A stretch of DNA of 64,000 bases from Halogranum rubrum (GTDB lineage: Archaea > Halobacteriota > Halobacteria > Halobacteriales > Haloferacaceae). The first letter of the stretch is position 1. Every line of letters begins with the position of its first letter. Shown here piece after piece: positions 60,336 through 63,924 of this stretch. Under the pieces are notes generated by a model that was given only the letters and a program-made list of their open reading frames with translations, made no database searches and was not told the DNA's origin. The position numbers and the translations under genes are program-made. The stretch covers positions 372,001-436,000 of the forward strand of contig NZ_FOTC01000001.1 of NCBI RefSeq assembly GCF_900114455.1, in the 5' to 3' direction.

Positions 60336-61871
60336 ATGTCTTCCCAGCAAACCGAGCAGACGTACAAACACTACATCGGTGGCGAGTGGACAAGCGGTGA
60401 CGGGACAGAGACGTTCGAGAGTACGAACCCAGCAACGGGTGAGGTACTCGGTGAATTCAGCCGCGGCACCGAGAGCGACATCGACGCCGCACTCGCCGAG
60501 GCCGACGACGCCGAAGAAGAGTGGCGCGAACTGTCGCACATCGACCGCGCAGAGTACCTCTGGGACATCTACCACGAACTTCGTGAGCGCACCGACGAAC
60601 TCGCCGAAGTCGTCACCAAAGAGTGCGGCAAAGAGATTTCGGAGGGTCGTGCGGACGTCATCGAAGCGTACCACATGGTCGAGTGGGCCGCAGCCGATGC
60701 TCGCCACCCGAAGGGCGACGTCGTTCCGAGCGAGATTCCAAGCAAGGACGCGTACATGCGCCGCAAGCCACGCGGCGTCGTCGGCTGTATCACGCCGTGG
60801 AACTTCCCAGTCGCCATTCCCTTTTGGCACATGGCCGTCGCACTCGTCGAGGGTAATACGGTTGTCTGGAAGCCCGCCGAACAGACGCCGTGGTGTGGTC
60901 AGATCATCGCCGAGATGTTCGAGGAGGCAGGCATCCCCGACGGCGTGTTCAACATGGTCCAAGGCTTCGGCGACGTCGGCGCCTCTATTGTCGAAGACGA
61001 GCGTGTCGACACCGTCCTCTTTACGGGGAGTGCAGAGGTTGGCCACGAGGTCGCCGAGAAGGTCGCTCAACAACCCGGCAAACTCGCCGCCTGTGAGATG
61101 GGCGGGAAGAACAACGTCGTCATCACCGAAGAAGCGGACCTCGACGTTGCCGTCCACTCGGCGCTCATGAGTTCGTTCAAGACGACCGGCCAGCGCTGTG
61201 TCTCTTCTGAGCGACTGGTCGTCCACGAAGACGTCTACGACGAGTTCAAAGCGCGCTTCGTCGAACTCGCCGAGAACGTCTCGGTTGGTGACCCTCTTGA
61301 AGAGGACACCTTCATGGGACCGCTCATCGAGGCCGACCACAAAGAGAAGGTCACGAAGTACAACCAACTGGCGAAAGACGAGGACGTGAACGTGCTCGTC
61401 GACCGCACCGAGTTAGCCGACGACGAGATTCCTGAGGGTCACGAAGCGGGCCACTGGGTTGGGCCGTTCGTCTACGAGGCCGACGCGTGGGAGGACCTGC
61501 GTTGTACCCACGAGGAAGTGTTCGGCCCCCACGTTGCGCTACTGAAGTACTCCGGTGATATCGAGGAGGGCGTTGCCATCCAGAACGATACCGACTACGG
61601 GCTGGCTGGTGCTATCATCTCCGAGAACTACCGCCAGATCAACTACTTCCGCGATAACGCTGAGGTTGGTCTCGCCTACGGCAATCTCCCGTGCATTGGT
61701 GCAGAGGTTCATCTGCCGTTCGGCGGCGTCAAGAAGTCCGGCAACGGCTACCCCTCCGCGCGTGAAGTCATCGAAGCTGTGACCGAGCGCACTGCGTGGA
61801 CGTTGAACAACTCGAAGGACATCCAGATGGCCCAAGGGCTCTCTGCAGACATCAAGACGAGGTCCGAATAA
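60336..61871 (+). CDS. NAD(P)-dependent aldehyde dehydrogenase (P5C or 2-oxoglutarate semialdehyde dehydrogenase-like)
   Basis: This 511-residue protein has all the family marks: ITPWNFPVAIPFWHMAVAL (cofactor site), VLFTGSAEVGHEVAEK, CEMGGKNNVVI (catalytic Glu), TTGQRCVSSERL (catalytic Cys288), EEVFGPHVALLKY and PFGGVKKSGNGYPSAREV. With proline dehydrogenase and racemase nearby, oxidation of glutamate semialdehyde to glutamate, or of 2-oxoglutarate semialdehyde from hydroxyproline, is likely. Codons are very GC-rich, as in highly expressed haloarchaeal genes. Confidence 0.92.
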   Translation: MSSQQTEQTYKHYIGGEWTSGDGTETFESTNPATGEVLGEFSRGTESDIDAALAEADDAEEEWRELSHIDRAEYLWDIYHELRERTDELAEVVTKECGKEISEGRADVIEAYHMVEWAAADARHPKGDVVPSEIPSKDAYMRRKPRGVVGCITPWNFPVAIPFWHMAVALVEGNTVVWKPAEQTPWCGQIIAEMFEEAGIPDGVFNMVQGFGDVGASIVEDERVDTVLFTGSAEVGHEVAEKVAQQPGKLAACEMGGKNNVVITEEADLDVAVHSALMSSFKTTGQRCVSSERLVVHEDVYDEFKARFVELAENVSVGDPLEEDTFMGPLIEADHKEKVTKYNQLAKDEDVNVLVDRTELADDEIPEGHEAGHWVGPFVYEADAWEDLRCTHEEVFGPHVALLKYSGDIEEGVAIQNDTDYGLAGAIISENYRQINYFRDNAEVGLAYGNLPCIGAEVHLPFGGVKKSGNGYPSAREVIEAVTERTAWTLNNSKDIQMAQGLSADIKTRSE

Positions 61872-62001
61872 TTCGCAGTATACCCAATCCATGCATCCGC
61901 ACTAGTGACGGGCAGAGTTCGAAGTGGACCAATTCTCGTGGGGGGTATACGGACGTCGACGGGTCAGAAAGACAGAATCTCTCAACCGACTGGATTCGAA
62001 T

Positions 62002-62052
62002 TAGCCTATTTTGAAATAGCCTATTTTGGATTAGCCTATTTCAAAATAGGCT
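62002..62052 (+). repeat. Three 15-bp tandem repeats plus inverted arm (candidate operator)
   Basis: TAGCCTATTT starts at 62002, 62017 and 62032, an exact 15-base step. The first copy, AGCCTATTTTGAAATA (62003-62018), is perfectly inverted at 62037-62052. The block lies directly upstream of the TATA box of the ATPase gene, where a repressor could bind. It could also form a strong hairpin ending the aldehyde dehydrogenase transcript. Confidence 0.7.
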
Positions 62053-62061
62053 GCTCGGAAG

Positions 62062-62068
62062 TATTATA
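62062..62068 (+). promoter_or_regulatory. TATA box for the ATPase gene
   Basis: TATTATA is centred 27 bases before ATG 62092, immediately after the repeat block. Confidence 0.55.
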
Positions 62069-62091
62069 CTGATATCCAAACACTGGACTGT

Positions 62092-63924
62092 ATGGACCGC
62101 TTCGTGGACCGGGAGAGCGAACTCTCGCGGCTTCAGCACGCGGTAGCGCGGAGCCTCCTTCCTCAACGAGCGTCGAAGACGCGAGTAGGGAGGAGAGGAA
62201 GCGCGTTCGCATAGGGTTAATACACTCCGCGACGTACCCCGTGTCACTGTCACCCTCGCACAAGTCGGGGACGATAGAAGCCACCAGTAAACTGGCTTCT
62301 GTGGTGCGATTCCAACGCACCCTATACTCGGGGACGCACGCCTTTGCGTGCAACCACCGAGAATTAAATCGACGGGACAATCCACACAACGGGTCTGATA
62401 AGTGTGGGTCGCAGCAACAACTCCGACCTGCTGCCCATTCTGTGGACGGTAAGAGGAAGTCGGGCCGTGTCCATGCACGGGGCACAGGGTACAATCGCGG
62501 TGCGGGAAAAGCCCTGTCCTCAAGGAGTGACCGACCGTCGCAAGGCGGGAGGGAGCGAGTAGGGCAGGGTAGTTTACGATTGCTACGACTCAGATGACGC
62601 CGAGATGATCATCATCTTCGGTCGTCGTCGCCTTGGCAAGACCGAACTGGTTCGACAGTCGCTGTCAGACCGTGACGACACTGTACTGTACCAAGCGACC
62701 GAGACGACGCCGCAGGTGCAACTGGACGAGTTTGTTGATGTCGCCTCAGAGTCGTTTCCTGGAATCAGCCGAATCAAAGCGGAGTGGGAATCACTCCTCG
62801 GGTACCTTACAGAGCAGGATGCGATTGTCGTGCTCGACGAGTTCCCGTATCTCATCGACGCCGATGGAAGTCTCCCCTCTGTCATCCAGCGACTGTGGGA
62901 TCAAGAGCTCAGAGACACCGCGGCGACGCTCATCTTGATCGGTTCGTCAATCAGTATGATGGAAGAGGCGACACTGCTCGGGAACAGCCCGCTGTACGGT
63001 CGATTCACCGAAAAAATTGATCTCCAACAACTAGATTTCGATGCTGCATGCGAGTTCTTCCCAGACACCTATACACCTGAAGAACAGGTACTTGTGTGGA
63101 GTGTGTTCGGCGGCACGCCATACTATCTTGACAGCATCGCACGTGACTCGGATCTCGGAACGGTCATCCAACAGTCGCTTCTCTCACAGCAGGGATTTCT
63201 TCACAACGAACCCGAGTACGTCCTCCGCACGGAACTGACGGAACCAAATCGATACTTTGCTATCCTGAAAGCAATTGCCGCCGGGAATACGACCTCCAAC
63301 GAGATTGCGCAGACAATCGGAATCGATGGGAAGCAGATTTCGACATACACGCAGAAGCTAGCGCGGCTCAGATTGATCGAACGTGAGGTCCCAGTCACCG
63401 AGGACAAGACAAAATCACGTCGGGGTCGATACCGGATTCTCGACCCGCTGTTTCGCTTCTGGTTCCGATTTGTCTACGGGAACGAAGACCGGTATGACCG
63501 ACTGGGCAGCGCTGCCTACGAGGCCGTTATTGAACCGGAGCTGGCCGATTTCGTGAGCCAAGAGTTCGAGATACTTTGTCAAGACGCCCTCCCTGAGCTG
63601 TATCCTGCGGAGACGTTCGTCGATATCGGCCGGTGGTGGTACCACGAGCACGAAGTCGATGTGATCGGGCTGACGAACAATGGCACAATGGTCACAGGCG
63701 AGTGCAAGTTCACGAATTCCTCGCTCGATTACAGCGCGCTTGCGTCGCTCGAAACCCACACCGACGAGATTCGATGGTCACCAAGCGGTGAGCCAGTAAC
63801 GCATGAATATGCGCTTTTTGCCCGAAATGGGTTCACGGAGTCGGTACGAGAGGCTGCCGCCGACCGCGACGACCTTCAGTTATTCGACCTCACCAAGGTC
63901 GTTGAGAGCGTCTCAATGGTGTGA
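62092..63924 (+). pseudogene. Archaeal ATPase with DUF234 domain, interrupted after codon 15
   Basis: The start MDRFVDRESELSRLQ (62092-62136) matches the N-terminus of this family. The protein resumes at 62578 with DCYDSDDAEM and the P-loop IIIFGRRRLGKTEL. Walker B-like IVVLDEFPYLIDADG, sensor ILIGSSISMM, GGTPYYLDSIA and a winged-helix region follow. A C-terminal DUF234 nuclease-like domain includes FVDIGRWWYHEHEVDVIGL and TGECKF. The 441-bp element between is a multiple of three but contains TAG at 62212. An internal ATG at 62605 could still give a 439-residue protein with its P-loop, lacking the first 25 or so residues. Confidence 0.8.
62137..62577. mobile_element. 441-bp non-autonomous element with structured ends, IS200/IS605-like
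   Basis: The borders follow from the host gene: LQ on the left and DCYDSDD on the right. Near the left end CTCCTTCCT (62155-62163) pairs with AGGGAGGAG (62187-62195). Near the right end CCCTGTCCT (62512-62520) pairs with AGGGCAGGG (62561-62569), and the element ends GTAGTTTAC. Each stem has one G-T pair. There is no transposase frame and no target duplication, as for IS200/IS605-type insertions. The same tail type occurs at 26075-26196. Confidence 0.6.

Follow-up and report, generated by a model that had tools for sequence, protein, structure and literature searches.

A 15-bp-spaced dyad array upstream of a PDC-S27-type ATPase gene of Halogranum rubrum, a probable autoregulatory operator

The locus: a dyad array in front of an interrupted ATPase gene

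The 64,000-nucleotide stretch of Halogranum rubrum contig NZ_FOTC01000001.1 analyzed here (hereinafter the window) contains, close to its right end, a gene for an ATPase that combines an ATPase_2 domain, a winged helix-turn-helix (wHTH) domain and a DUF234 domain, preceded by a block of short repeats (Table 1). A preliminary description of the window, made from the letters alone, portrayed this block as a three-step 15-bp iteron with a perfect inverted arm, followed ten bases later by a TATA box, and suggested that it might be an operator for cooperative binding, perhaps in autoregulation by the ATPase. The three copies of TAGCCTATTT indeed start at 62002, 62017 and 62032, in steps of exactly 15 bases, positions 62003-62018 (AGCCTATTTTGAAATA) are the perfect reverse complement (16/16) of 62037-62052 (TATTTCAAAATAGGCT), with the arms reaching 21 nt at 95 % match when extended, and the TATA-like sequence TATTATA occupies 62062-62068, ten bases past 62052. 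The repeats and the arm are thus real, but their natural description is a different one, namely four tandem 13-bp dyads in 15-bp steps that together span 61999-62056, with the dyad AATAGnCTATT inside each step. Because each unit is a dyad, its reverse complement is the identical site and the inverted arm, which corresponds to unit 4 plus linker with a G in the middle where the other copies have C, needs no separate explanation. The register continues into the promoter: the center of the TATA box (62065) lies exactly 15 bp from the center of dyad 4 (62050), AGTATTATACT at the TATA box is itself a perfect dyad, and the palindrome signal of this fifth register, at position -27, exceeds the background in 49 relatives too. 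The block is a row of four or five sites with two-fold symmetry, placed 15 bases apart. Among 60 dinucleotide-shuffled versions of the window, there was no triplet of exact 10-mers at equal spacing (step 8-60); the window itself holds two such triplets, the TAGCCTATTT block and one simple CCG-type run.

Comparison of the N-termini of relatives, which read M-x-x-F-V-(D/N)-R, places the start codon of the ATPase gene at 62092 (MDRFVDRESELSRL), from where the window matches this pattern, and not at 62605, where the listed open reading frame (ORF) begins. Given that the TATA box is located about 27 bases 5' of this ATG, the ATPase message is probably leaderless. Shortly downstream, directly after the TTCA at 62132-62135, a 441-bp insert breaks into the gene; the flanks on either side of it continue the reading frame seen in the relatives (H-D-C-Y-D). 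The insert shows about 70 % identity to copies elsewhere, with both ends in common, and because in one locus (L130) its left-end match, a TnpB gene and its right-end match follow one another in this order, we identify it as a miniature IS200/IS605-type element. The 3' end of the insert (62509-62570) resembles the Rfam family DUF3800-X (RF02984) with 26.9 bits, below the gathering threshold of 38.2; an RNA element over the array was considered and rejected, this match inside the insert being the sole Rfam match. Because the insert adds an in-frame TAG, the reading frame is not intact and the ATPase copy of the window is broken, so that the system is probably inactive here, with the operator retained. 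Neither the dyad units nor the start codon and the interrupting element had been noticed in the preliminary description. The equivalent ATPase gene of a congener (G001:C35, locus L028, 1160-1945) has an intact operator and an internal deletion, and the gene seems to have been lost repeatedly in this genus. A paralogue with 39 % identity in the genome of the window (L151; G000:C6:541132-542427, minus strand) shows a long dyad-like stretch, CTAGATTATCATAATCTAG, immediately before its start codon.

Table 1 Features of the array and the ATPase gene (window coordinates)
Feature	Coordinates	Strand	Sequence	Basis or remark
Operator dyad 1	61999..62011	+	AATTAGCCTATTT	
Operator dyad 2	62014..62026	+	AAATAGCCTATTT	
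Operator dyad 3	62029..62041	+	GATTAGCCTATTT	
Operator dyad 4 (inverted arm of the preliminary description)	62044..62056	+	AAATAGGCTGCTC	register of dyads 1-3; position -48 in relatives
Fifth register	62059..62071	+	AAGTATTATACTG	holds TATA box TATTATA
True 5' end of ATPase gene	62092..62135	+	MDRFVDRESELSRL...	N-termini of relatives
Miniature IS200/IS605 (TnpB-type) element, 441 bp	62136..62576	+		inserted after TTCA; carries in-frame TAG
Rest of ATPase gene (ATPase_2 domain, wHTH, DUF234)	62577..63924	+		ORF from 62605 is the truncated remainder
Winged helix-turn-helix	63217..63429	+		residues 205-275 of the ORF from 62605; MarR_2 match; AlphaFold model of L035
Recognition-helix segment	63313..63354	+	IGIDGKQISTYTQK	residues 237-250; co-varies with operator
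D...ExK motif in C-terminal region, PD-(D/E)XK-type fold	63658..63708	+	VDVIGL...GECK	conserved residues; model; PMC12988326

Conservation of the array upstream of homologous genes

The preliminary description named a lack of conservation upstream of homologues as a result that would refute its operator reading. The upstream regions of homologues, collected from 80 loci in haloarchaeal genomes and from further loci in other genomes, show the opposite, with the layout conserved and the letters varying by subfamily. Arrays with 15-bp spacing precede the start codons of ATPase_2-wHTH-DUF234 genes across haloarchaea, in dozens of species, at a constant position with respect to the start codon, and the relatives carry them without the mobile mini-element. 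The mean upstream autocorrelation at lag 15 over 96 homologues is 0.545, compared with 0.267 for shuffled sequences and 0.263 for a control stretch farther upstream, and 87 of these 96 regions peak at lag 15. By a local test, this lag comes first in 93.5/96 of the close homologue set, in about 15 of the 22 more distant haloarchaeal paralogues and in only about 5 of the 20 methanogen-side genes. Three of the methanogen-side loci (L157, L159 and L160) contain clear 15-bp-spaced units, ATACTCTAAAGTATG, located between the TATA box and the start codon and not upstream of the TATA box. Family-wide conservation of the array beyond haloarchaea is at most suggested. Within 3 kb of the ATPase genes at the homologous loci, no gene is consistently linked, neither a regulator nor a Rep-type or partition gene.

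Operator classes and the recognition helix

Each subfamily has its own array sequence. The half-sites fall into the classes AATAGnCTATT, (A/G)TATnATA(C/T), ACTATTATAGT, AATACCCTATT and GATTTCnGAAATC, with the singleton GATTnnnnnAATC in addition, and the form AATATnATATT is also encountered among the subfamily sequences. A phase-free unit finder took a shifted phase at a few loci (L103, L079), and a neighbor-guided second pass was applied. The classes pair with distinct recognition-helix motifs of the wHTH domain: AATAGnCTATT with GIDGKQIST (43 loci), (A/G)TATnATA(C/T) with GI(D/E)YNQLS(T/K), ACTATTATAGT with GIESTNTSY, AATACCCTATT with GIDSDQISH and GATTTCnGAAATC with GVESGSLST. In the AlphaFold model of a relative (L035; mean pLDDT, i.e., predicted local distance difference test, of 85), this motif lies in the third helix of the helix-turn-helix, which is followed by a wing (helices 238-249, 255-262 and 266-278).

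When the rest of the protein is controlled for, the distance between wHTH domains correlates with the distance between operators (partial r 0.478), compared with 0.061 for the rest of the protein with the wHTH controlled and 0.331 for the best block of equal size outside the wHTH. An unbiased scan that covered every 12-residue window of 108 proteins placed 13 of the 15 top windows within the wHTH region (residues 202-271). The recognition helix showed the highest raw correlation with the operator (0.851) among the scan windows listed and ranked second by partial correlation (0.391), behind a segment near Walker B (0.397).

Paralogues within one genome bear different operators. This is the case in Halarchaeum acidiphilum (L075 and L078 as opposed to L086 and L089), Halorubrum lipolyticum (L054 and L097) and Halorubrum persicum (L061 and L103), whereas three classes are present in G017 (L005, L135, L138) and different classes coexist in G038 (L017, L139, L141, L143). 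In the genome of the window, the paired site is single, apart from one match elsewhere with 2 mismatches. Allowing up to 2 mismatches, the paired site matched 92 times in 119 genomes of the family, compared with 19 matches for a reversed-pattern control. An ATPase sequence was found within 1.5 kb in 22 of the 30 site loci inspected; the other eight comprise two chance-like matches and six arrays that lack the gene. Exact paired-site scans of IMG/VR for operators carried in trans by viruses retrieved 12 contigs (GC fraction 0.28-0.44), none with the ATPase gene, which were judged unrelated.

The ATPase and comparable systems

The Pfam domains PF01637 (ATPase_2) and PF03008 (DUF234) are detected above cut-off in the window ORF and in its relatives. 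Among the relatives, the Walker A and B residues (G30-K36, D102-E103) are invariant, as are D376, E390 and K392 of the D...E-x-K motif (L035 numbering), and the C-terminal region of the L035 model has the order beta-beta-beta-alpha-beta. The protein matches PDC-S27, a candidate antiviral system, for which the PADLOC models hit three intact relatives (1e-44 to 1e-49). PDC-S27 has been described as a fusion of an ATPase with a PD-(D/E)-X-K domain, a single-gene antiviral candidate that is abundant in archaea, most such candidates being experimentally unvalidated (PMC12988326). The domain combination, ATPase_2 and DUF234, is the same as in the relatives; the difference is that the copy in the window is broken.

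Foldseek matches comprise 2qen and 2fna, then Orc1/Cdc6 and STAND ATPases, and MuB-type ATPases as well. With STAND- and Orc-type ATPases that carry a wHTH (MalT, Orc1/Cdc6 and the archaeal 2qen and 2fna), the protein shares the combined fold of ATPase and winged helix, although the sequence matches to 2qen and 2fna stop short of the C-terminal domain. We know of no operator data for these ATPases. Two known arrangements resemble the array itself. Controller (C) proteins of restriction-modification systems act on C-boxes, tandem dyads beside the promoter of a defense gene, and thereby control themselves. The likeness to the array lies in tandem dyads at the promoter of a (candidate) defense gene and in self-control; however, C proteins are small separate helix-turn-helix regulators, whereas here the effector ATPase carries the wHTH and up to five 15-bp registers are present. 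Plasmid iterons are direct repeats with constant spacing, a property they have in common with the array, but the array differs in that its units are dyads located at a promoter and no Rep-type gene recurs in the neighborhood. We found no account of an operator for PDC-S27, nor of the internal wHTH as the reader of one, and a literature search with the site sequence returned nothing relevant among the papers listed.

A probable self-operator of the ATPase gene

The explanation we favor, with a probability of roughly three in four, is that the block serves the ATPase gene as its own operator, to which ATPase dimers bind with their winged helices in an autoregulatory circuit; in this respect, the suggestion of the preliminary description is largely supported, with the binding itself predicted from sequence. 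As befits an autoregulatory operator, repeated dyads are located at the promoter and conserved together with the gene, and the operator co-varies with the DNA-binding helix of the gene product. The dimers would bind the 11-13-bp dyads, 15 bp apart from center to center, and neighboring dyads would be filled cooperatively, side by side, toward the TATA box, where the bound ATPase would hinder TFB/TBP and so limit its own transcription. The continuation of the register across the TATA box is our reason for proposing interference with TFB/TBP, and the dyads between the TATA box and the start codon in other clades also suit repression. Provided that autoregulation holds, repression would be the likelier effect on the gene.

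Several observations weigh against this interpretation. Operator classes largely track clades, and shared ancestry explains part of the correlation. On 18 thinned representatives (<75 % identity), the partial correlation of the wHTH given the rest drops to 0.346, the best 12-residue window is near Walker B (74-88) and the localization to the helix is lost. Because shared ancestry contributes, the co-variation of operator and wHTH is strong but not conclusive evidence. Furthermore, an array placed before the TATA box might serve an activator, activation being the other option, and the six ATPase-less arrays in the 119 genomes may be relics or may be targeted by something else.

Those six arrays, the many wHTH regulators encoded in archaeal genomes and a location beside the TATA box that would suit any regulator are what could be said for a separate host regulator, rather than the ATPase, as the protein that binds the array. 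We consider this unlikely because the letters of the array track the wHTH of the ATPase, one genome can contain three or more array types that each go with a separate ATPase subfamily, linked regulator genes are absent and the site is single-copy in the genome of the window. An extension of the reading we favor, which also seems rather improbable, is that the array does more than an operator would and keeps the ATPase-nuclease on its own promoter as an oligomer at rest, in the register of the TATA box, such that a disturbance of host transcription, for instance by a virus, would release or over-produce the effector; private operators would then keep the several paralogues of a cell independent. 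Still less probable is a nuclease target or an iteron-like loading or partition site instead of a transcriptional operator. The tandem sites, the fold matches to Orc1/Cdc6 and MuB-type ATPases and a ParA gene with an ATPase-less array some 400 bp before it (L214, L215) fit such a role, but the array is locked in position, via the TATA register, with respect to promoter and start codon of a single type of gene, and at the homologous loci neither replication nor partition genes occur with it.

The terminator of the aldehyde dehydrogenase gene, the alternative raised in the preliminary description, is practically discounted: the block does lie downstream of that gene and could form hairpins, but 127 bases separate the block from the end of the gene at 61871, and the array precedes ATPase genes whose upstream neighbors are unrelated, with no conserved upstream gene among the homologues. 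Equally negligible is an origin by chance or as a repeat of a mobile element, which the mini-element 80 bp downstream might bring to mind, given the outcome of the shuffling and the relatives that have the array without the element.

What appears to be new in the self-operator of the ATPase gene is its apparent reader, the effector ATPase. From the arrays, haloarchaeal PDC-S27-type ATPases are predicted to bind DNA sequence-specifically and to control their own genes, with a correspondence between helix and site that can be read in about six classes. The arrays also provide a direct handle on the timing and mode of action of these ATPases.

Arrays without the ATPase gene and neighboring genes

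Inspection by eye indicates that, among the ATPase-less arrays, the one in L204 has upstream sequence in common with ATPase loci, and it looks like a relic. In two species (L214 and L215, ~1530-1595), the array is of a 15-bp TAGGCTA type and is located upstream of the ParA-type gene mentioned above. Arrays of the same type are found in one genus 5' of a gene for a wHTH protein (L216, 2393-2440; L217, 2093-2125; L218, 2402-2435), which in L216 and L217 is followed by a nucleotidyltransferase-like gene, and another array (L219, 2800-2840) is near a gene that by eye is ethanolamine ammonia-lyase-like.

The commonest neighbors of the ATPase gene are a SWIM-type protein (10/80 loci) and a short protein encoded upstream (5/80). 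In the YNQLS class, the SWIM-type zinc-finger-like protein is encoded 3' of the ATPase in L091, L092, L094, L095, L096, L100 and L103.
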